DNA of 43,797 nucleotides from positions 1 to 43,797 of the forward strand of contig CACXFV010000050.1 of the NCBI GenBank assembly GCA_902767015.1, read 5' to 3'. Position 1 is the stretch's first letter; each line of letters begins with the position of its first letter. This stretch comes from an uncultured Lachnospiraceae bacterium. Lineage in GTDB: Bacteria > Bacillota > Clostridia > Lachnospirales > Lachnospiraceae. Positions 33,415 through 43,797 of the stretch are shown here, piece by piece. The notes under the pieces are model-generated. The model was not told the origin of the DNA. It searched no databases and worked only from the letters and a program-made list of their open reading frames with translations. The position numbers and the translations under genes are program-made.

Positions 33415-34050
33415 ATGTTACCATCAAAAGAAGAAATGGAGCATGCCCTCAAAAATCGCCATGGGGGAGAACTTCAGAACAAGTTTGCGAAAGCAACAGT
33501 TGCGATATGCGGGCTTGGAGGACTTGGTTCTAATATTGCCATAGCTCTTGCCAGAGCAGGAGTCGGACACCTGATACTGATAGATTATGACAAGGTCGAT
33601 ATCACTAATCTCCACCGTCAGCAATATAAGGCTGATCAGCCAGGAAGATATAAAACAGAGGCGCTGCATGACAATTTAAAAGAAATAGCACCTTACATTA
33701 CCATTGATATCCACACGTTGAGGGTGACACAGGAAAACTGTAGGGAACTGTTAAATCGTGCAGATATCATTTGTGAAGCCTTTGATCAGGCACAGGAAAA
33801 ATCAATGCTGGTCAATACTGTGCTTGAAGAAATGCCGGAAAAATATCTTGTATGCGCTTCAGGCATGGCAGGAATGGATAGTGCCAATAGGATTCAGACA
33901 AGAAAGATTACGGAGAGGTTTTATCTGTGTGGTGACGGTGTCAGTGATGTAGCGGAAGGTAATGGATTGTTTTCATCAAGGGTTATGCTGTGTGCCGCTC
34001 ATGAGGCACATATGGTTCTGCGGATCATTGCAGAGGAGTATGAAGTGTGA
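33415..34050 (+). CDS. thiF: ThiS adenylyltransferase ThiF
   Basis: ThiF adenylates the C terminus of ThiS. The 211-residue E1-like protein shows the nucleotide motif GLGGLGSNIAIALARAGVG, the LIDYDKVDITNLHRQQY segment with the Arg-Gln pair, and CEAFDQAQEK. It is the short clostridial form. I see no CxxC pair of a zinc site. ATG 33415 overlaps the end region of thiS, implying coupled translation. Its TGA stop (34048-34050) lies in the 5' arm of a repeat element. Confidence 0.92.
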   Translation: MLPSKEEMEHALKNRHGGELQNKFAKATVAICGLGGLGSNIAIALARAGVGHLILIDYDKVDITNLHRQQYKADQPGRYKTEALHDNLKEIAPYITIDIHTLRVTQENCRELLNRADIICEAFDQAQEKSMLVNTVLEEMPEKYLVCASGMAGMDSANRIQTRKITERFYLCGDGVSDVAEGNGLFSSRVMLCAAHEAHMVLRIIAEEYEV

Positions 34051-34140
34051 AAAGTAAACTTTCACACTGTTGATTGGTGGCAGTATGGCAAGCAGTCCGA
34101 TGCAATACAATTGCATTGGCGGTATGCAGGAGGGATAAGC
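34044..34140 (+). repeat. RBS-carrying intercistronic repeat, copy A
   Basis: The element begins with AGTGTGAAA (34044-34052) paired with TTTCACACT (34060-34068). GGCAGTAT (34079-34086) follows, then an inner hairpin ATGCAAT/ATTGCAT (34100-34106, 34110-34116), GGTATGC (34121-34127) and AGGAGGG (34128-34134), 6 nt before ATG 34141. Copies at 35037 and 43044 share the same layout and most of the sequence. The thiF stop codon lies in the first arm. Confidence 0.8.
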
Positions 34141-34188
34141 ATGATAATAGCTATTACGATAAAGAAGGAAGGATTAGAATATGAATAA
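34141..34188 (+). CDS. Possible 15-residue leader peptide overlapping thiG
   Basis: The AGGAGGG of repeat copy A is perfectly spaced for ATG 34141, which opens [15 protein letters not shown] and stops at TAA 34186-34188, eight nt inside thiG (ATG 34181). Termination would bring ribosomes to the thiG start, suggesting translational coupling. thiG also has its own GGAAGGA site, inside this small ORF. Confidence 0.4.
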
Positions 34189-34951
34189 TGATAAACTTAT
34201 TATTGGCGGACATGAATTTGATTCAAGATTTATTCTTGGTTCAGGGAAGTATTCGCTTAATCTGATAGAGGCAGCCGTAAAGGATGCCGGAGCACAGATT
34301 ATCACACTTGCCGTCCGCCGTGCCAATACAAAGGAAGGGGAAAATATTCTGGATTATATTCCAAAGGATGTAACCTTACTTCCTAATACAAGTGGAGCGA
34401 GAGATGCGGGGGAAGCTGTGAGAATTGCGAGACTGGCGCGAGAGTTGGAATGTGGAGATTTTGTAAAGATAGAAATTATGCGTGATTCAAAATATTTGCT
34501 GCCTGACAACGAAGAGACGATCAGGGCGACGGAGACGTTGGCAAATGAAGGCTTTGTTGTCATGCCGTACATGTATCCAGATTTAAATGTGGCAAGAGAT
34601 CTTGTGAATGCAGGGGCAGCGGCAGTAATGCCACTGGCTTCACCAATCGGCTCCAACAAAGGTCTTGCCACGAAGGATTTTATTCAGATTTTGATTGACG
34701 AAATAGAGCTGCCAATCATAGTTGATGCGGGAATCGGTAAGCCGTCACAGGCCTGTGAGGCAATGGAGATGGGAGCAGCGGCAATTATGGCGAATACTGC
34801 CCTTGCCACAGCAGGAGACCTTCCTCTTATGGCAGCAGCATTTAGGCAGGCCATTGAAGCAGGTCGAAAAGCGTATCTTTCGGGTCTGGGAAGGGTACTG
34901 AGCCGTGGAGCGACAGCATCGGATCCGCTGACAGGTTTTTTGCATGATTAA
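34181..34951 (+). CDS. thiG: Thiazole synthase ThiG
   Basis: ThiG forms the thiazole phosphate ring from deoxyxylulose phosphate, dehydroglycine and ThiS thiocarboxylate. The 256-residue barrel shows FILGSGKYS, the TLAVRRANT block, the Schiff-base Lys region [20 protein letters not shown], and [27 protein letters not shown] for phosphate binding (given in two parts, 195-215 approx.). GGAAGGA precedes ATG 34181. It depends on ThiH for dehydroglycine. Confidence 0.95.
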
Positions 34952-35036
34952 ATAGACCTGATGTTGATAATTTCTAACGAAATTTCGAAAATGGCAGGTA
35001 TATATTACAGCATAAATGTATAGGAACGGAGATAAT

Positions 35037-35114
35037 AGTTTGAAAGTAAACTTTCAAACTACTTATTGTTGGCAGTATCACAAGCATGGCTTGCGATATG
35101 CAGGAGGTATAAAA
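35037..35114 (+). repeat. RBS-carrying intercistronic repeat, copy B
   Basis: AGTTTGAAA (35037-35045) pairs with TTTCAAACT (35052-35060). GGCAGTATCACAAGC (35071-35085) then folds back on GCTTGCGATATGC (35089-35101), and AGGAGG (35102-35107) abuts the stem, 7 nt before the thiH ATG. Compared with copy A, the first-arm bases change together on both sides (GTG/CAC to TTG/CAA), which keeps the pairing. Between thiG and the element lies 85 nt holding only an AATTTC/GAAATT hairpin. Confidence 0.85.
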
Positions 35115-36368
35115 ATGGAAAATGATTTTTTTATAGATTCAGCGCATTTATCGGAAGCTGCTCTTAAAAGAAAACATAAGCTTGAGACAGATCCCTCTTC
35201 AAGGACTAATCATATGGAATATCTGCCCGATATGGAAAAGATAGACTCTGATGTATGTGAACAGGTCATGACGCACATGAACTCCTATGATTATCATCAA
35301 TATACGGCAAAAGATGTCAGGACAGCTCTTGAACATGATCAATGCGGAATTGAGAATTTTAAAGCATTGCTTTCTCCGGCTGCAGAACCGTTTTTAGAGC
35401 AGATGGCACAGAGGGCAAGAATAGAGACAGGAAAGCATTTTGGTAATAATGTTTATATATTCACACCGCTTTACATCGCGAACTATTGTGAGAATTATTG
35501 TGTCTACTGTGGTTTTAATTGCTATAACGATATAAAGCGCATGAGGCTTAAGATGGAGCAGATTGAACAGGAAATGAAGGTAATCGCAGAAAGTGGCATG
35601 GAGGAAATTCTGATTCTGACAGGCGAGAGCAGAGGTCAGAGTAGTGTAGAGTATATTGGCGAAGCCTGTAAGCTTGCAAGAAAGTATTTTCGGATGGTTG
35701 GAATTGAAATATATCCTGTCAATACTGATGAATACAGGTATCTTCATGAATGTGGAGTGGACTATGTGACAGTATTTCAGGAGACATACGATACCGTAAA
35801 ATACGAAACCTTGCATCTTGCAGGACATAAGCGAATATGGCCGTATCGTTTTGATGCACAGGAGCGTGCATTGAGGGGAGGAATGCGGGGTGCCGGATTT
35901 TCAGCATTACTGGGACTTTCAGATTTTAGAAAGGATGCGCTTGCAAGTGCACTTCATGTCTATTATTTGCAGAGAAAATATCCACATGCAGAGATGTCCC
36001 TTTCCTGTCCGAGACTCAGACCGATTATCAATAATGAGAAGATTAATCCTCTGGATGTCCATGAAAAACAATTGTGTCAGATTCTATGTGCCTATCGTAT
36101 CTTTCTTCCTTTTGTCGGAATAACGGTATCCTCAAGAGAGAGTGCAAGGTTTAGAAATGGAATTGTAAAAATTGCAGCGACAAAGGTATCGGCAGGTGTT
36201 TCTACGGGCATCGGTGACCATGAAAGTAAATACAGTGGAAAGGAGACAGACAGTATGCAGGGTGATGAACAATTTGAAATTGATGATGGACGAAGTCTTG
36301 ATACAATGTATAAAGATATTGTCGGAGAAGGTCTGCAGCCTGTTCTGAATGACTATCTGTATGTATGA
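35115..36368 (+). CDS. thiH: 2-iminoacetate (dehydroglycine) synthase ThiH
   Basis: ThiH is a radical-SAM tyrosine lyase that supplies dehydroglycine to ThiG, an oxygen-sensitive route fitting an anaerobe. The 417-residue protein has the CX3CX2C cluster motif at C125, C129 and C132 (CENYCVYCGF), LTGESRG, FQETYD and the C-terminal SSRESARFRNG block. ATG 35115 is fixed by the AGGAGG of repeat copy B. The frame is open further upstream through the repeat, but without a site. It overlaps the next gene by 8 nt. Confidence 0.95.
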   Translation: MENDFFIDSAHLSEAALKRKHKLETDPSSRTNHMEYLPDMEKIDSDVCEQVMTHMNSYDYHQYTAKDVRTALEHDQCGIENFKALLSPAAEPFLEQMAQRARIETGKHFGNNVYIFTPLYIANYCENYCVYCGFNCYNDIKRMRLKMEQIEQEMKVIAESGMEEILILTGESRGQSSVEYIGEACKLARKYFRMVGIEIYPVNTDEYRYLHECGVDYVTVFQETYDTVKYETLHLAGHKRIWPYRFDAQERALRGGMRGAGFSALLGLSDFRKDALASALHVYYLQRKYPHAEMSLSCPRLRPIINNEKINPLDVHEKQLCQILCAYRIFLPFVGITVSSRESARFRNGIVKIAATKVSAGVSTGIGDHESKYSGKETDSMQGDEQFEIDDGRSLDTMYKDIVGEGLQPVLNDYLYV

Positions 36369-36960
36369 TAAAAAGATGGATATATCGAAAATCAGAAATT
36401 CCATGTCTCAGATTGTGTGTGTCACAAACCGGTTAATCTGTAATGGAGATTTTCTTGACAGAATTGAAGAAATTGCAAGATTAAAACCAAAAGCGATGAT
36501 TCTAAGAGAAAAAGATTTAAGCGAAGAACAGTATAAAGTTCTTGCAGAAAATGTTTTAGAGATTTGTCATCGGTACGATACTAAATGTATTTTGCACAGC
36601 TTTGTCAATGTTTCAAGAGCCCTTCACTGTAAAGCAATCCATCTTCCTACGTCAGGTCTGTTATCACTTTCAGAGGAAGAAAGAAAATATTTTACAACAC
36701 TGGGAGCTTCCTGTCATTCGATGGAGGAAGCGGTAAAGGCAGAAGAACTGGGTTGTAGTTATATCATTGCAGGTCATATTTTTGACACGGATTGTAAAAG
36801 GGGACTGCCGGGCAGAGGACTTGAATTCCTTAAGAATATCTGTAACAGCGTTATCATACCTGTGTATGCGATAGGAGGAATCACAGCGGCTCATCTGCCG
36901 GATGTTTTTACGGCAGGTGCCAAGGGAGCTTGCATTATGAGTGGTTTGATGCAATACTGA
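36361..36960 (+). CDS. tenI: Thiazole tautomerase TenI-like protein
   Basis: This 199-residue barrel belongs to the ThiE/TenI superfamily. Details favour TenI, which aromatises the ThiG product, over the thiamine-phosphate synthase ThiE. It has HSMEEAVKAEE and GHIFDTDCKRGLPGRGLE, close to Bacillus TenI (HSLEEAVQAEK and HVFETDCKKGLEGRG as I recall it), and the IHLPTSG segment where ThiE has a Gly-Gln-Asp type motif. The start is probably ATG 36361, overlapping the thiH stop; ATG 36349 and 36376 are alternatives. With this reading the operon makes only the thiazole half of thiamine. Confidence 0.75.
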   Translation: MYDKKMDISKIRNSMSQIVCVTNRLICNGDFLDRIEEIARLKPKAMILREKDLSEEQYKVLAENVLEICHRYDTKCILHSFVNVSRALHCKAIHLPTSGLLSLSEEERKYFTTLGASCHSMEEAVKAEELGCSYIIAGHIFDTDCKRGLPGRGLEFLKNICNSVIIPVYAIGGITAAHLPDVFTAGAKGACIMSGLMQY

Positions 36961-37020
36961 AAGCACGAGGGCACTTCACAGGTATGGTGCTTTGCAGGTT
37001 AATTAGAAATTGATCACTGC

Positions 37021-37082
37021 TACTTGACAATACATAGTAACAGTGATATTATTTTAATTACTACTTGATAATACAAGGTAGC
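37021..37082 (+). promoter_or_regulatory. PadR gene promoter with two operator-like repeats
   Basis: TTGACA (37024-37029), 17 bases, TATTAT (37047-37052) form a near-consensus promoter. The -35 lies in TACTTGACAATACATAGTA (37021-37039), a partly palindromic sequence. It recurs 41 bases on as TACTTGATAATACAAGGTA (37062-37080). Two such sites flanking the start are what an autoregulated PadR-type repressor would use. Confidence 0.6.
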
Positions 37083-37124
37083 TAAAGTAAAAACTAAGAA
37101 TATAATGTGATAAAGGAGATTACG

Positions 37125-37469
37125 ATGCAGGATACACAATTAATGAAAGGAATATTAGAAGGATGTGTTCTTTTAGTTATTGCAAAGGGGGAGACCTATG
37201 GATATGAGATTTTATCCGAACTTGCGTCTGACGGATTTGACAATTTATTAGAGGGAACATTATATCCAATGCTTGCAAGACTTGAAAAGAACGGATATAT
37301 TTCATGCAGAAAAGCAAAGTCGCCCCTTGGACCCCTCAGAAAGTATTATAAGGTAACTGTTGCAGGAAAACGATATTTAAATGAATTTATGGAGAATTAT
37401 ATAAAAATAACAAAGAGTGCGGACAGAGTTCTTTTTAATGGCGAAGACAGGCTTGTTACCAGTTTCTGA
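37125..37469 (+). CDS. PadR-family transcriptional regulator
   Basis: This 114-residue winged-helix repressor shows the family pattern LEGCVLLVIAKGETYGYEIL, TLYPMLARLEKNGYI for the recognition region and wing, and RKYYKVTVAGKRYL. It is the short PadR class. AAGGAG supports ATG 37125. Members usually sit with a DUF1700 or transporter gene; here the next gene is convergent and overlaps its 3' end by 14 bp. The target could be itself and the Bce-like module beyond, which is inference. Confidence 0.88.
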   Translation: MQDTQLMKGILEGCVLLVIAKGETYGYEILSELASDGFDNLLEGTLYPMLARLEKNGYISCRKAKSPLGPLRKYYKVTVAGKRYLNEFMENYIKITKSADRVLFNGEDRLVTSF

Positions 37470-37938
37470 CGCCATCGATATGAATAAACCGTGGGATGGA
37501 AAAATCATATGAATAAAGAGGTCTGTCTAACGCATCAAAAGTGTGGGCTGCCACTAATATTGCCGGTGTTACGGCAGTAATGACAGGAGAGTGATAGAAC
37601 TCATTATATTCATTTCCGAGCTGAACGATATCACCGGGCTGTACTTCTGATGCTGATACTACATGGGCATATGGGCCCACTGACCGGTTGCCTGTCAAAA
37701 ATTTATACAGGTAATTGACACTGGTCCATGAGGCGGTCCGGTCATATGAGGAGCGATAGTACCAGCCTGTAACGGCTGTGTAGTTCATGACTTTTGCACC
37801 GGCATAAATGCATTGGGATGCAAAATTGGTGCAGTCTCCGCCCACATACTCAAAATCATAATAGGCGGGATTTCTCCCCATGGCCCATTTTCTCGCATAT
37901 GCTACGGCTAAAGTTCGGTTATATGGAAGTTCTCTCAT
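37456..37938 (-). CDS. Cytosolic amidase-domain protein (Amidase_6 type)
   Basis: This 160-residue protein has the putative amidase (NlpC/P60-like papain fold) pattern YVGGDCTNFASQC with Cys 36 as likely nucleophile. GWYYRSSYDRTASWTSV follows, and the PGDIVQ and YHSPVIT segment offers the likely His. No signal peptide or cell-wall-binding domain is present, so it would stay in the cytosol unless exported otherwise. AGAGGT precedes its ATG (complement of 37938). Substrate unknown; relatives are usually secreted wall enzymes. Confidence 0.75.
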   Translation of the reverse strand: MRELPYNRTLAVAYARKWAMGRNPAYYDFEYVGGDCTNFASQCIYAGAKVMNYTAVTGWYYRSSYDRTASWTSVNYLYKFLTGNRSVGPYAHVVSASEVQPGDIVQLGNEYNEFYHSPVITAVTPAILVAAHTFDALDRPLYSYDFSIPRFIHIDGVRNW

Positions 37939-37994
37939 TTTGATACCTCTTTTTTCCCTGTTCTATTCATATATTATGCAATCATCTGTTTTTA

Positions 37995-38062
37995 TGGTAC
38001 AATAATTACAGTGTCTGCGCATTGCCTGCCACAAACTTGATATGTGCAAAAAGCAGCGCAGA
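37995..38062. promoter_or_regulatory. Divergent promoter region and leader hairpin
   Basis: On the + strand TG-G-TACAAT (TACAAT 37998-38003) is an extended -10 for the regulator gene, without a clear -35. On the minus strand TTGTAC overlaps it and faces CATAAT 18 bases on, serving the amidase gene. In the + strand leader TCTGCGC (38014-38020) can pair with GCGCAGA (38056-38062). A four-codon ORF with its own GAGGT (38076-38090) precedes the regulator gene. Confidence 0.45.
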
Positions 38063-38122
38063 AATGAGGTAAAAAATGAAAAGGGACTAAAAATATCATT
38101 ATAAACACAGGTGGTGACAAAT

Positions 38123-38785
38123 TTGAAAAAAATTTTAATAGTGGAAGACGATTTATCAATCTGCAGCGAACTTAAGGAGCTTCTTAAAAATGCAGGATAT
38201 GAGGTGGAGATTCTTAGGGATTTTAGTAATTCAAAAGAGAATATCTTACATGCCAATGCAGATTTAATACTTCTTGATATTAATATTCCGGGACTGAACG
38301 GGGAAATGCTCTTAAGAGAGATACGAAAAGAAGCAGATATACCTGTCATCATGGTTACCAGCCGAACATCCGAGGCAGATGAAGTTCTGTCAATGAGCTA
38401 TGGGGCAGATGATTACGTAACAAAGCCATACAATCCGACGATTCTGTTACTCAGAATCTCAGCAATACTTAAGAGAACGGAGCCGGCGGAGGGAAGGTTA
38501 AGATACAGAGATTTAAATGTATATCCGGCAAAAGGTGTTTTGGCAAACGAAAATGCAGAGCTGTCCCTTACAAAAAATGAGATGATTATTTTTAAACATT
38601 TATTAGAAAGACAGAATCGTATTGTGTCAAGAGATGAATTGATGACAGAGTTATGGGACAATAATGAGTTTATCAACGATAATGCCCTCACGGTCAATAT
38701 CAGCAGACTCAGGGCAAAGCTTGCAGATTTTGGCTATGAGAATGTAATAGAAACAAAAAAGAAACAGGGGTATATTTTACAATGA
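38123..38785 (+). CDS. OmpR-family response regulator (BceR-like)
   Basis: This 220-residue two-domain regulator has a receiver with the acidic pair VEDD, phospho-acceptor Asp 52 in LLDINIPG, Thr/Ser in MVTSRTSE and Lys in YVTKPYNP. A winged-helix DNA-binding domain follows (LTKNEMIIFKHLL, NALTVNISRLRAKL, TKKKQGYIL). TTG 38123 has AGGTGGTG at the right distance; GTG 38111 and 38114 lie inside that site. It overlaps the kinase gene by 4 nt. Neighbours show it belongs to a Bce-type antimicrobial peptide sensing system. Confidence 0.88.
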   Translation: MKKILIVEDDLSICSELKELLKNAGYEVEILRDFSNSKENILHANADLILLDINIPGLNGEMLLREIRKEADIPVIMVTSRTSEADEVLSMSYGADDYVTKPYNPTILLLRISAILKRTEPAEGRLRYRDLNVYPAKGVLANENAELSLTKNEMIIFKHLLERQNRIVSRDELMTELWDNNEFINDNALTVNISRLRAKLADFGYENVIETKKKQGYILQ

Positions 38786-39822
38786 AATTAAAAAAATATT
38801 TAGTGGATAAATTAATTGAAATGATTTTACTGATTGGGTTTATGATAATGACAATGTCGGTATTGCTGGCATTAAAGTTACAGACCGGAATTTTGATATT
38901 GTATTTTTTTCTTTGCATTCTGTTTTTTGTGCCGGTGATTTTATCGGACTATCTTAAAAAGCGTTCTTTTTACAGGGAATTGCTCACAAACATAGAAAGA
39001 CTGGACAAGAAATATCTTGTGCTTGATACCTTGAATGAACCCTCATTTTATGAGGGACAGCTGATCTGTCATGCTATGTATGAGATTAACAAATCAATGT
39101 GTGAGAATGTAAAAAAATATGAATTGAACGTCAACAGTTTTAAAGATTATTTGGAAATGTGGGTTCACGAGGTGAAAATTCCTATCGCGAGCCTTTTATT
39201 AATGTGCCACAACCATTCGGTGGATGTAAAAAAATATAAAGAACAGTTAAGAAGAATGGATTTCTATACCGACCAGGTCTTATATTATGTGCGCTGTGAA
39301 CATGCAGAAAATGATTATATCATTAAGGAGGTAGAGCTTGACAGGGTGATAAATGAGTCGGCGCAAAAAAACAGAGAGGATTTCCTTGCCGGTGATGTAG
39401 CATTAAAAGTTGAAAATGTTGATATGAAAGTAATGACAGACAAAAAGTGGCTTGAATTTATATTAAATCAGATTATCAATAACAGTATCAAATATAAGGC
39501 AAATAACAGGGAGAGTTATATTCATATATATGCTGAAGATTTTAAGGATAAGACAGTTTTGCATATCAGAGACAATGGGATAGGAATTGCGGCGAGTGAT
39601 TTGCCAAATGTTTTTAAGAAGTCCTTTACAGGAGAAAACGGAAGAAAACATGCAAAATCCACAGGAATGGGATTATATATTGCAAAAATGTTGTGTGACA
39701 GATTAGGACATAAAGTGGAGGTTTTATCAGAACAATCAGGCTCCGAAGCAGATGATAATTCAGAGAGCTTCACGGAATTAAGGATTACATTTGTAAAGAA
39801 TGATTTTTATAAGGTGAGATAA
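38782..39822 (+). CDS. Intramembrane-sensing histidine kinase (BceS-like)
   Basis: This 346-residue kinase has only two closely spaced N-terminal membrane helices (about 11-30 and 36-55) and no extracellular domain, the hallmark of BceS-type kinases that sense through their partner ABC transporter. The phospho-acceptor is His 129 in MWVHEVKIPI. The ATPase domain shows QIINNSIKY, DNGIGI, and STGMGLYIAKML. ATGA overlap with the regulator gene implies coupled translation. Confidence 0.9.
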   Translation: MKLKKYLVDKLIEMILLIGFMIMTMSVLLALKLQTGILILYFFLCILFFVPVILSDYLKKRSFYRELLTNIERLDKKYLVLDTLNEPSFYEGQLICHAMYEINKSMCENVKKYELNVNSFKDYLEMWVHEVKIPIASLLLMCHNHSVDVKKYKEQLRRMDFYTDQVLYYVRCEHAENDYIIKEVELDRVINESAQKNREDFLAGDVALKVENVDMKVMTDKKWLEFILNQIINNSIKYKANNRESYIHIYAEDFKDKTVLHIRDNGIGIAASDLPNVFKKSFTGENGRKHAKSTGMGLYIAKMLCDRLGHKVEVLSEQSGSEADDNSESFTELRITFVKNDFYKVR

Positions 39823-39882
39823 CAGTTGTATTTTTACAGTTTTATAATAAATGAGAATGATGAGATGTTTGGAATGTCAACC

Positions 39883-39896
39883 TTACAAAATTGTAA
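39883..39896 (+). promoter_or_regulatory. BceR-type operator
   Basis: TTACA-AAAT-TGTAA fits the TnACA-N4-TGTAA inverted repeat described for Bacillus BceR-type regulators. It is centred about 62 bases before the predicted RNA start of the transporter genes, the position expected for activation. Confidence 0.65.
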
Positions 39897-39916
39897 TGTT
39901 TCGTAATATAAAAAGT

Positions 39917-39945
39917 GCGACAATTGTGATGATACCGGCTAAAAT
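39917..39945 (+). promoter_or_regulatory. Promoter of the Bce-like transporter genes
   Basis: GCGACA (39917-39922), 17 bases, TAAAAT (39940-39945). The imperfect -35 fits a promoter that needs an activator bound at 39883-39896. The gap 39823-40133 otherwise holds the small ORF at 39988. Confidence 0.6.
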
Positions 39946-39987
39946 AACACATGTAAACAAACAATGTGTTAAGAACGGAGGATTATG

Positions 39988-40062
39988 ATGAGCAGAAAAA
40001 AATTAGGAAAAATAATTTTGATAATTGGAATTGTTGTAACAGTAGTCAATATCTTATCTTAA
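39988..40062 (+). CDS. 24-residue hydrophobic peptide in the Bce-like module
   Basis: A GGAGG site (39977-39981) is ideally spaced for ATG 39988 (an ATG also lies one codon earlier). The ORF encodes a basic start MSRKKLGK, then a hydrophobic stretch IILIIGIVVTVV, ending NILS. It would form a single membrane helix. It is the first ORF after the activator-dependent promoter, 71 nt before the ATPase gene. No homologue is known to me; a regulatory or accessory membrane peptide is plausible. Confidence 0.5.
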   Translation: MSRKKLGKIILIIGIVVTVVNILS

Positions 40063-40133
40063 GACAGTATTTCATCTGGAATGAGGTGTTACACAAAAAG
40101 AGTGAAAAATCATAAAAGAAAGAGGTTATCATC

Positions 40134-40901
40134 ATGAAGAACATTTTAAAAATTGACCGGATAGAAAAATATTACGGAAATAAATCAAGTCTTACAAAGG
40201 CAATCGATAATATTTCATTTGATGTGAATGAAGGTGAATTTGTCTCCATCATGGGTGCATCGGGAAGTGGAAAAACGACACTTTTAAACTGTATCTCTAC
40301 GATTGATAAAGTTACTTCCGGCAATATTTATGTTGATGGGCAGGATATCACAAAGCTTAGAGGGAATGCATTAAATAAATTCAGAAGGGAAAAGCTGGGA
40401 TTTATCTTTCAGGATTTTAATCTGTTAGACACACTTACCGCCTATGAAAATATCGCGTTGGCATTATCGATACAGAACTATCCTGTCAAAAAGCTTGATG
40501 AGGAAGTGAGAAAGGTCGCAAAAGAGCTTGACATAGAAGATGTATTAAATAAATATCCGTATCAGATGTCAGGAGGACAAAAGCAGAGGGTTGCCTCTGC
40601 AAGAGCGGTAATCACAAATCCGACACTTGTCCTTGCTGATGAGCCTACAGGAGCACTTGACTCCAAATCAGCTAAGATGTTGCTTGAAAAATTCCAGTTT
40701 TTAAACAGGGAAATTCTTGCCACTATCCTTATGGTTACCCACGATTCGTTTACGGCAAGCTATTCCTCCAGAGTAATCTTTATTAAAGATGGAAAGATTT
40801 TTAACGAGATTTTCAGAGGCACAGATTCGAGAAAGGTATTTTTCAATAAAATAATAGACGTTGTTACACTGCTGGGAGGTGATGGCAGCGATGTTATTTA
40901 A
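40134..40901 (+). CDS. ABC transporter ATPase (BceA-like)
   Basis: This 255-residue MacB/BceA-type ATPase has Walker A GASGSGKTT, Q-loop FIFQDFNLLD, signature MSGGQKQRV, Walker B LVLADEPTGALD and switch His VTHDS. With the following permease it forms a transporter that in Bacillus frees lipid-bound wall precursors from peptide antibiotics such as bacitracin and reports flux to the kinase. The actual ligand here is unknown. It overlaps the permease gene by 11 nt. Confidence 0.92.
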   Translation: MKNILKIDRIEKYYGNKSSLTKAIDNISFDVNEGEFVSIMGASGSGKTTLLNCISTIDKVTSGNIYVDGQDITKLRGNALNKFRREKLGFIFQDFNLLDTLTAYENIALALSIQNYPVKKLDEEVRKVAKELDIEDVLNKYPYQMSGGQKQRVASARAVITNPTLVLADEPTGALDSKSAKMLLEKFQFLNREILATILMVTHDSFTASYSSRVIFIKDGKIFNEIFRGTDSRKVFFNKIIDVVTLLGGDGSDVI

Positions 40902-42876
40902 AATATCTTTCAAAAATATCAAAAAGAGTGTTAAAGATTATGCCATATACTTTTTTACACTGATTGTAGGTGTAGCAATATTTTATGTTTTTAATTCCAT
41001 CGAAAAACAGACAGTTATGCTTAACATCACAAGCGACCAGAGAGAAATCATTAAAATAATTGTGGATATGTTGTCATATGTAAGTGTATTTGTATCTTTC
41101 ATTCTCGGATTTTTAATTATCTATGCCAGCAGATTTCTGATAAAGAGAAGAAACAAAGAATTTGGAATTTATTTACTTTTAGGCATGGGAAAAAGGAAGA
41201 TTTCTACGATTCTGTTTATTGAAACATTACTGATAGGGCTTATCTCTCTGGCAGTCGGTTTAGGGGTAGGAGTATTTGCCTCACAGTTTATGAGTATATT
41301 TATTGCCAACACGTTTGAGGCGGATATGTCAAGCTTTGCCTTTGTATTCTCATCGGATGCGTGTATCAAGACTATTATGTACTTTGGAATCATGTATTTA
41401 ATTGTTATGGTCTTTAATATATTTATTATTGGAAAGTGTAAATTGATTGATTTAATGCAGGCAGGCAGAAAGAGCGAAAGAATAAGGATGAAAAATCCGA
41501 TTGTATGTATTATCGTATTTATTATTGCTGTCTTTATGCTTTTAAGGGCCTATTATATGGTGACGGATGGCATTGGAAAAATTATCAGAAATCCTGATAA
41601 TTTGCTTGTTGCCATCATACTTGGTGCTGTTGCCACCTTTTTGATTTTCTGGTCTGTATCGGGATTGCTCTTAAAAATGGCGATGGCTGTCAAAAAAGTT
41701 TACTATAACGGGCTTAACAGCTTTATGATCAGGCAGATTAGCAGTAAAGTCAACACAACTGTTTTTTCGATGACCATTATTTGCCTGATGCTCTTTATCA
41801 CGATTTGTGTGTTGTCTGTTTCCACTTCAATCAAAAAATCATTAGAGGACAGAATTGAAAAATATTGCAAGGCAGATATAGAGATTTCGAGTGGATTTTA
41901 TGATTATGATGAGACTTTAGACGACTTGAAATTTAATGGGGAAAACAATGTATTTCATTTATATGAACAGGCAGGTTATGATGTGAAATCATATTTTGAT
42001 GAATATGTTGAATATTACACATATAATGTTTATAGTCTAAGTGATGATAACGAAGAGGATATAGCAGAAGTCATTACTCTTAGTGATTATAACAAAGCTG
42101 CCGGATTAATGGGAAATTCACCAATTGAACTGAAAGAAGATGAATATGTTATTCTTGCAACAAATGGGGTACATGTATCCCGATATAATAAATTGCTTTC
42201 AAAGAATCATGTATTAGAAATTAATCACTATTCGCTTACACCTAAATATGATAAATGTGTTGACGGAGTTATCGCTTTATCAGACGGACCAGGTGTAGGA
42301 ATTACGGCTTATATTGTGCCGGACATTATATTAAAAGGTTGTGAACCGACGCGGGATACTGTTATTGCTAACTATGCAGCGAAAACAAAAAAAGAAAAAC
42401 GTGAAATCGAAGATAAAATACGAGATATGGATGTCGAATATGGCTATATGACAAGTAAAATAGAAGCTTATGATGCAAATGTAGGAATTGGAACCATGTT
42501 TATCTTTTTAGGTTCCTATCTTGGGGTGGTATTTTTAATCTCAGGTGCGGCAATCCTTGCACTTAAGGAATTGTCTGAAAGTACGGATAACATTGAAAGA
42601 TATGCTGTTTTAAGAAAAATAGGAGCCGACGAAGCAATGATTCATCACTCACTTTTTGGACAGATAGGAATATTTTTTGCACTTCCTCTTGTGTTAGCTG
42701 TCATACATTCCATAGTTGGAATAAAATTTTCAATGATGGTTGTTTCTATGTTTGTGAGAAAAGAAGAATTAATCTCCGGAATACTGGCAACCTCAGGCAT
42801 TATCGTGGCGATTTACGGAGGGTATTTTCTTCTTACCTATCTGTGCAGCAAACAGATCATTAAAAGCAGGGTATGA
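40891..42876 (+). CDS. FtsX-like permease (BceB-like)
   Basis: This 661-residue permease begins MLFKISFKNIKKSVKDYAIYFFTL, typical of BceB proteins. It has about ten helices, with a large extracellular domain (roughly residues 315-535) between the seventh and eighth, and an FtsX domain at the C terminus (LKELSESTDNIERYAVLRKIG). GGAGGT in the end of the ATPase gene supports ATG 40891 over the upstream in-frame start at 40861. The extracellular domain would decide ligand specificity. Confidence 0.9.
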   Translation: MLFKISFKNIKKSVKDYAIYFFTLIVGVAIFYVFNSIEKQTVMLNITSDQREIIKIIVDMLSYVSVFVSFILGFLIIYASRFLIKRRNKEFGIYLLLGMGKRKISTILFIETLLIGLISLAVGLGVGVFASQFMSIFIANTFEADMSSFAFVFSSDACIKTIMYFGIMYLIVMVFNIFIIGKCKLIDLMQAGRKSERIRMKNPIVCIIVFIIAVFMLLRAYYMVTDGIGKIIRNPDNLLVAIILGAVATFLIFWSVSGLLLKMAMAVKKVYYNGLNSFMIRQISSKVNTTVFSMTIICLMLFITICVLSVSTSIKKSLEDRIEKYCKADIEISSGFYDYDETLDDLKFNGENNVFHLYEQAGYDVKSYFDEYVEYYTYNVYSLSDDNEEDIAEVITLSDYNKAAGLMGNSPIELKEDEYVILATNGVHVSRYNKLLSKNHVLEINHYSLTPKYDKCVDGVIALSDGPGVGITAYIVPDIILKGCEPTRDTVIANYAAKTKKEKREIEDKIRDMDVEYGYMTSKIEAYDANVGIGTMFIFLGSYLGVVFLISGAAILALKELSESTDNIERYAVLRKIGADEAMIHHSLFGQIGIFFALPLVLAVIHSIVGIKFSMMVVSMFVRKEELISGILATSGIIVAIYGGYFLLTYLCSKQIIKSRV

Positions 42877-42908
42877 CAAGATGCTTTTAAGATGCAGTTG
42901 TATGATAA

Positions 42909-43055
42909 AATTTATTAAAATTAATTGATGATACTGTGCTTTCTGATTGTGAATGGGAGGTCACCTTTGATGATGTGGATATGGTCTATGATGAGATAGA
43001 AGGGTTTCGGTTTCCGACAGATGAGGATTATCAGGAGATGAATAGTTTGGAGTAA
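42909..43055 (+). pseudogene. Remnant of a small acidic protein gene
   Basis: An open frame of 48 codons ends at TAA 43053-43055 and encodes an acidic tail (SDCEWEVTFDDVDMVYDEIE, then GFRFPTDEDYQEMNSLE). Upstream in frame are stops and no good start; GTG 42936 has no site. It looks like the 3' end of a lost gene. Its stop codon lies within the first hairpin of repeat copy C. Confidence 0.45.
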
Positions 43056-43138
43056 ATTTTCAAACTACTTATTGGCGGCATTATCACAAGCAAACAAATA
43101 CAATTACATTGCATTGGCAATATGCAGGAGGTATAAAA
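43044..43138 (+). repeat. RBS-carrying intercistronic repeat, copy C
   Basis: AGTTTGG (43044-43050) faces TTTCAAACT (43058-43066). ACTTATTGGCGGCATTATC and ACAAGC follow as in copy B, then a longer variable loop like copy A (GCATTGGC), ATATGC, and AGGAGG (43126-43131) with TATAAAA before ATG 43139. The ATG is followed directly by TGA, so here the ribosome site leads to no product in frame. GTG 43141 opens only a 22-codon frame. Confidence 0.85.
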
Positions 43139-43164
43139 ATGTGAAAAAAGGAGAAGTAAAATCA

Positions 43165-43479: not shown

Positions 43480-43797
43480 ATGATAAAAAGTGAAATCAGT
43501 ATACAAAATTTTGGACCGGTGAAGAATGCAAAGATTGATTTGAATAAAAATTTTCATATCTATATCGGAGCGCAGGCATCGGGTAAAAGTACAATTTGCA
43601 GAGTGATATATTTTTGCTTGAAAATTAGAGATTATACATTAGATTTTTTAATGAATGAACAGCAGTTTACCGAGAATCATAAAAATGAATACCTAAATAA
43701 TTATTTTAATATTTAACCAAACAGTTCATGGGATGCTTTGGGAAAACAAAGCATATGCAGAAATTTACTATTGAATATACATTTAGTAGCAAAAAGA
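43480..43797 (+). pseudogene. AAA ATPase gene, frameshifted and cut by window end
   Basis: The first frame gives 78 residues of an SMC/RecF-like AAA protein (ISIQNFGPVKNAKIDLNKN, P-loop GAQASGKST) and stops at TAA 43714-43716. In another frame from about 43713 the sequence continues sensibly (LTKQFMGCFGKTKHMQKF, TIEYTFSSKK), matching the usual region after the P-loop in such proteins. A one-base loss or two-base gain near 43700-43713 therefore breaks the gene. The rest lies outside the window. Relatives occur in defence loci, but nothing here shows that role. Confidence 0.6.

Follow-up and report, generated by a model that had tools for sequence, protein, structure and literature searches.

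A dispersed two-stem repeat of Lachnospiraceae that probably inserts between the Shine-Dalgarno sequence and the start codon of genes and carries a replacement Shine-Dalgarno sequence

The REP2 repeats of Neisseria carry a ribosome binding site (RBS) at an ATG, and neither a two-stem fold nor an insertion between the Shine-Dalgarno sequence (SD) and the ATG is known for them. In Neisseria meningitidis, the nhba gene is preceded by a 150-bp CREN (PMC9031163). The BOX, RUP, and SPRITE elements of Streptococcus pneumoniae are characterized as short, structured, modular, and probably parasitic non-autonomous repeats that may lie within transcribed DNA; start codons come from some BOX elements, and the BOX-encoded open reading frames (ORFs) tested lacked good SD sequences (PMC3049150). 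REP and REPIN repeats are small hairpins with many intergenic copies and a short motif 5′ of the hairpin (PMC6006769). Here, a further repeat is described from a stretch of 43,797 nucleotides (the window; contig CACXFV010000050.1 of assembly GCA_902767015.1) of an uncultured Lachnospiraceae bacterium. It is probably a non-autonomous mobile repeat that inserts between the SD and start codon of a gene and brings a replacement SD at its 3′ end, a reading given a probability of about 0.65.

The window holds three copies, A, B, and C, on the forward strand at the places where an earlier note on this DNA had put them, and ATGCAGGAGG occurs in it exactly three times on both strands together, once per copy. 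Their common order is a hairpin 1 of the AGTTTGAAAG-TAAA-CTTTCAAACT type, ACTTATTGGTG, a stem 2 (GCAgTATC...GATATGC with a variable inner part), AGGAGG, a spacer, and ATG. The spacer, given as 6–7 nt in the earlier note, is 7 nt in all three. Hairpin 1 folds in each copy.

The repeat shares with Neisseria REP2 and CREN its dispersal just before genes and, with REP2 in particular, a position directly before an ATG with the RBS included; it comes from another phylum. Like BOX, RUP, and SPRITE, it is a short, structured, non-autonomous repeat, with start codons supplied by some BOX elements, whereas a fixed position between SD and ATG is not described in the portion of that source consulted (PMC3049150). 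The REP/REPIN-RAYT and IS200/IS605 systems likewise have small hairpins, scattered between genes in many copies, with a short motif on the 5′ side (PMC6006769), and GTGG precedes stem 2 in many copies here, although not in all. In contrast to these systems, the genome of the window (the own genome) lacks a Y1 transposase, and in contrast to REP/REPIN, the repeat is one-sided, oriented toward genes, and ends at the ATG. With miniature inverted-repeat transposable elements it has in common that it is short, dispersed, present in many copies, free of a conserved reading frame, and strongly structured by covariation (the single folds of copies A and C are not significant). Unlike them, it lacks terminal inverted repeats: in genome G211, the ends AAGGTTGAAAG... 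and ...GGGTATAA are not mutual reverse complements.

The clearest insertion site is that of thiH. Copy B (35034..35117) fills the gap between thiG and thiH as a complete element that includes AGGAGG and the thiH ATG, and it scores 78.0 bits with the covariance model R1. At this place the congener G006 reads AATGGAGAATAGAAAAATGGAAAATG, while the window has AACGGAGATAATAG to the left of copy B and AAAATGGAAAATG to its right. CGGAGA at 35027..35032, which aligns with ATGGAGAATAG-AAAAATGGAAAATG of G006, is interpreted as the native thiH SD in its displaced position. It appears to be stranded 82 nt before the ATG, with the element's AGGAGG (35102..35107), the putative replacement SD for the ATG at 35115, in its place; copy B thus probably supplies the RBS of thiH. 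The loci of argR and an HI0933-like gene are compatible with the same arrangement. A scan of 43 congener loci for 12 genes (thiG, thiH, argR, the HI0933-like gene, and eight out of ten genes combined in one query, in which SurE and a contig-126 gene had no congener matches) found no element (best score 16.5 bits, E 0.57), and therefore the copies at the 12 genes look like insertions; the orthology of these loci was not checked singly, and some HI0933-like ones (40–52% identity) may be paralogs. The cassette of the earlier note, mobile or copied, agrees with these empty sites, and mobility is something that we infer from them and from the distribution of the repeat rather than something observed.

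The RBS belongs to the element. Model R1 was built from 13 copies and ends before the RBS (at TATGC), so that the sequence downstream of its end is an independent test. Among 42 own copies (E ≤ 0.001, without the antisense cross-hit L031 and 15 rows from other genomes), the first 10 nt past the R1 end contain an SD-like stretch in 33, as against 17% of random positions in the same loci. An ATG stands at +12 to +14 in 30 of the 42, and an SD-like stretch with an ATG starting within 7–17 nt in 28 (4.8% at random positions). The ATG lies 12–14 nt away in 40 of 53 single copies of other genomes as well. Near-identical bodies on contigs 5, 29, and 109 continue with ACGGGG, ATGGGG, and ACGGGG before different genes, which suggests that the SD-like block travels with the element.

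The edges of the repeat are sharpest in the long form of G211, for which 24 copies were extracted, 16 of them being single at their left edge and 21 at their right edge. At all 16 left edges, conservation sets in at AA|GGTTG, and on the right it runs through GGGTATAAATATG to end directly after the ATG; A, T, and G at +13 to +15 are each present in 18 of 21 copies, and the information content drops from 1.28 to 0.40 bits directly past the ATG. The dinucleotide AA is found at all 16 left edges and mostly at the right edge, and TAA or ATAA is common to some copies. In other genomes, 21 of 53 single copies have an SD-like left flank (−13 to −1, strong pairing with the anti-SD), compared with 3, 2, 2, and 6 of 53 in control windows further left. 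When the flanks of 74 single copies (own and other genomes, non-tandem, ATG 9–15 nt past the model end, leaving out L060 and L062 as likely false) are joined without the element, an SD-like motif is found within 40 nt in 47. For 32 of them, it lies 2–12 nt from the ATG with a peak at 5–8 (binomial probability against a uniform position, 3e-8).

Hairpins also occur at the left flank. A terminator-like hairpin GTGCCGC...GCGGCATG immediately precedes the element at own loci L027, L034, and L038 and at L180 of G376, and it is perhaps a second repeat or an extended form of the element. At L124, L172, L177, and L179 of G139, a hairpin and, after it, AGATGGG or a similar sequence close the left flank, which looks like a sister repeat with a different stem lying ahead of the element.

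In the proposed mechanism, the element would enter between the SD and the start codon, in the long form of G211 typically 2–3 nt before the ATG and at AA. Its 3′ end (AGGAGG or AATGGG, then TATAA) would imitate the SD and spacer that it enters, and after insertion the old SD would lie stranded on the left and the new SD properly spaced from the ATG. Every insertion would in this way recreate the target, which would explain the head-to-tail copies; these are frequent, and in other genomes an element-like 3′ end lies directly left of 21 of the 74 listed copies by a loose pattern (74 of 92 matches, excluding antisense cross-hits and, at two loci, repeats of one place). The point of insertion, the imitation of SD and spacer, the lack of a longer common duplication, and the tandem copies fit a site-specific event, one in which the SD and spacer would serve as the core and the element would restore what it displaced. 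Elements that target tRNA-gene attachment sites and integron cassettes behave comparably, in that the end of the element replaces the part of the gene displaced by insertion. The likeness lies in this restoration; the restored part here is an RBS. A recombinase or transposase would have moved the copies, the SD-like motif itself would be the recognition core, and ribosomes would use the new SD. The cassette reading of the earlier note accordingly calls for refinement in one respect: the insertion point seems often to lie inside an existing RBS, between SD and ATG.

Several observations weigh against this reading. The left-flank SD is not enriched among 38 single copies of the own genome (7 of 38, against 5, 3, 4, and 8 in control windows), where it is seen only in the 16 best-scoring copies, and 27 of the 74 joined sites lack an SD-like motif. 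Among the 12 loci compared with congeners, a clear stranded SD is present only at thiH, with two others compatible; at the alanine racemase, penicillin-binding-protein, STAS, and sulfatase-family loci, a native SD cannot be clearly made out on the left side of the element. At murD and rsmB, a native-looking start follows downstream of the element. G211 and G376 have a weak replacement SD in the long form (AATGGG), and across predicted folds of 32 own copies, made without a control, the new SD is unpaired with a mean probability of 0.53, a prediction that neither supports nor excludes easy access. The own genome (96.7% complete) has no match to the Y1 transposase family PF01797, the one enzyme family searched, with a control search that matched in 5 of 14 well-known genomes. 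The congener G001 itself contains 12 matches, so the family extends beyond the species of the window, and no fresh insertion was seen to separate strains of a single species.

Some of these points would suit an untargeted cassette instead, in which a repeat carrying SD and ATG lands anywhere and only the copies that leave a gene readable survive. Copies A and C and those before murD and rsmB all lie upstream of a native-looking RBS, the ATG of the element at a sulfatase-family gene seems to stand in for a start that two congeners have about four codons upstream, and left-flank SD enrichment is missing across the own single copies as a whole. Under such a process, however, harmless insertions upstream of the native SD should dominate, yet the 12–14 nt distance to the ATG prevails in the own genome and elsewhere, and 32 of the 47 SD-bearing joined flanks have normal spacing; an untargeted cassette is therefore considered unlikely. 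Descent from REP/REPIN or IS200/IS605 elements is quite unlikely. A Y1 (HUH) transposase would here bind both hairpins as single-stranded DNA, with the SD as left cleavage or target motif, and the two subterminal hairpins, the head-to-tail copies, the lack of a target duplication common to all copies beyond AA, and the frequent GTGG before stem 2 (one of the 5′ tetranucleotides of REP hairpins, PMC6006769) are all in keeping with it. Against it stand the missing PF01797 match and the inconstancy of GTGG, which is replaced by other letters in G163, G001, G332, and G205.

The conserved covarying fold, together with the pseudoknot-like pairing and the GAAAGG-like loop motif of the long form, could also belong to a cis-regulatory RNA leader of a regulon, inherited with its genes, which would make the copies a network instead of parasites. 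This is very unlikely, as the element is missing from the congener loci scanned, downstream functions are unrelated, tandem copies occur, inner hairpins vary among copies, and no Rfam match overlaps an element in the window, at six own loci, or at 12 further loci; the Rfam matches listed (RNase P, TD-2, caiA, microRNA, and snoRNA models) all lie off the elements. Convergent strong RBSs have in their favor that AGGAGG with an A-rich spacer is common in Bacillota. They are hardly credible, as is an assembly artefact, and both are already contradicted: the models exclude the RBS, a 20-nt pattern of the 3′ end (≤3 mismatches) is found at 26 places of the own genome and at none for the reversed control, and the family is also present in the one-contig genome G376 and in a Parablautia intestinalis strain.

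The repeat is about 70–110 bp long, non-coding, and dispersed in many copies. In the own genome of 2.9 Mb, R1 gives 49 matches at E ≤ 1, of which 43 have E < 0.005 (including the 13 copies used to build the model and one antisense cross-hit), and R2, a model of 50 aligned copies, gives 46 at E ≤ 0.01. These are not homologous parts of thi operons, which bears out the view that the element is dispersed and independent of the thi genes. The covariance-model search proposed in the earlier note accordingly returned what it had anticipated: many matches before genes, covarying stems, and an AGGAGG-like stretch before the start. A Pfam family was assigned to 17 of the 19 downstream genes scanned; their functions are unrelated and include ThiG, a ThiH-type radical SAM protein, ArgR, alanine racemase, SurE, MurD, RsmB, and a flagellar rod protein.

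Matches are present in 15 of 397 genomes of the same family (E ≤ 0.001) and in one of 391 of a class-wide sample, which is the own genome alone, with 12–13 candidates scored per genome in both surveys. When 14 chosen genomes were searched more deeply with R2 (E ≤ 0.01, up to 150 scored candidates each), the counts were 113 copies in G211, 86 in G139, 46 in the own genome, 44 in G376, and 43 in G295. The remaining genomes hold 28, 21, 20, 12 (congener G001), 10, 6, 4, 1 (congener G006), and 0 (congener G008). The family is thus patchy across Lachnospiraceae, with few genomes and a high copy number in some. Among the matches listed for G211 (40 of 131 candidates scored), no long-form copy is split by a gene; the list consists of complete copies, short 3′ fragments lying next to complete copies, and small antisense matches. 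In the titles and abstract openings of the open-licence literature, no description of the repeat was found with the terms used. The element is probably a non-autonomous mobile repeat of Lachnospiraceae, and it may be a parasite able to settle in the control region of a gene while the gene stays active.

Both stems are supported by covariation. The 50 sequences have 62 double-change cells, against 18.9 ± 3.6 in shuffles (0 of 500 as high), and 89.2% standard pairs; no shuffle equaled the data on four of five measures, and 11 of 500 did so on the fifth. Sliding the partner by 1–3 columns leaves at most 24 double-change cells compared with 62 in register, in an alignment that was fitted to the tested structure and so favors it. 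The inner part of stem 2 varies between GCAAGC/GCTTGC, the AACAAAGCATTGCTTTGTT palindrome, CAGG/CCTG, and ATGCAAT...ATTGCAT. Loci L133 and L143 of G389 have the usual stem 1 but a perfect stem 2 of unrelated sequence, and they are still flanked by two SD-like blocks ahead of an ATG; stem 2 may accordingly be replaceable. At L026 and L051 there are tandem GGCAATTAAATTGCATT-like units that resemble the palindrome inside some elements.

A long form, whose stem 1 carries a loop of some 30 nt, occurs in G211, G376, G032, G131, G163, G001, and G006. The loop contains a TGCC-type stretch able to pair with the GGCA before stem 2 in a pseudoknot-like manner, and in 37 long-form copies the mean value of this helix is 7.0, against 3.0 for shuffled loops. 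A GAAAGG-like motif, presumably a fit to the 3′ tail of 16S rRNA, is found in 36 of the 37 loops (one of four variants allowed). Many of these copies are close relatives within G211 and hence represent few independent events. A wider proposal has only slightly less than even odds. It would make the repeat an RBS-targeting mobile family for which the SD and spacer act as an attachment core that is split and then restored, so that the gene can still be translated and the target is formed anew, with the long-form pseudoknot and the 16S-complementary loop forming a portable ribosome-docking leader. In the pistol ribozyme, the P1 loop pairs with the linker before the last stem; a pistol-like architecture of the long form was left aside, there being no Rfam pistol match. 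A translated element was also considered and set aside: in 60 of 106 elements, a frame that begins with TTG or GTG in stem 1 stays open throughout (10 and 49 for the other frames). Relative to the downstream ATG, this frame is in phase in 28 elements and in the other two phases in 35 and 20, and 23 have no such ATG, a scatter that argues against a conserved leader peptide or fusion.

Within the window, copy B has hairpin 1 at 35037..35060 (35037–35046 pairs with 35051–35060) and stem 2, supported by fold and covariation, at 35072..35101 with an inner CAAGC/GCTTG hairpin. Folded as a whole, copy B greatly exceeds its shuffles in stability (z −4.0, matched by 0 of 200), while copies A and C folded alone are not significant (z −1.5 and −0.9). 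Copy A (34043..34143, R1 69.6 bits; R1 span without the RBS, 34042–34127) lies in the gap between thiF and thiG and consists of hairpin 1 (34044..34068, arms 34044–34052 and 34060–34068), linker, stem 2, AGGAGG (34128..34133), and ATG. The thiF stop codon sits inside hairpin 1 (ORF 33415–34050, ThiF by Pfam), much as the element at a racemase-family gene on contig 7 provides the stop codon of the upstream frame. The ATG of copy A at 34141 is not the start of thiG but opens a 15-codon ORF (34141..34188, stop at 34186–34188) that overlaps the thiG start at ATG 34181, as assigned from congeners. This ORF ends inside the thiG start, so thiG may be translationally coupled to it. Copy C (43041..43141, R1 66.9 bits) is a complete element with AGGAGG at 43126..43131, an SD-like AGGAGA immediately to its left (43033..43038), and an ATG (43139) directly followed by TGA; the small ORF after it is preceded by a separate SD-like AAAGGAG and starts at a separate ATG (43166). 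The translation start that the element was said to bring to downstream genes is therefore plausible for copy B and thiH, whereas the ATGs of copies A and C are not the start of a recognizable gene.

If the insertion reading holds, a mobile repeat would target a translation initiation signal and repair it on entry, a form of silence in compact bacterial genomes. The 5′ leaders of dozens of unrelated genes would have been rewired in one species while its sisters keep the ancestral leaders, and these natural leader pairs would make the effect of leader structure on translation testable. For annotation, copies of the element can create false starts and mini-ORFs, as before thiG.

Near the end of the window, a 78-aa frame (43480–43716) has a start that resembles an AAA-type ATPase by eye (GAQASGKST); it stops early and is perhaps a broken gene.

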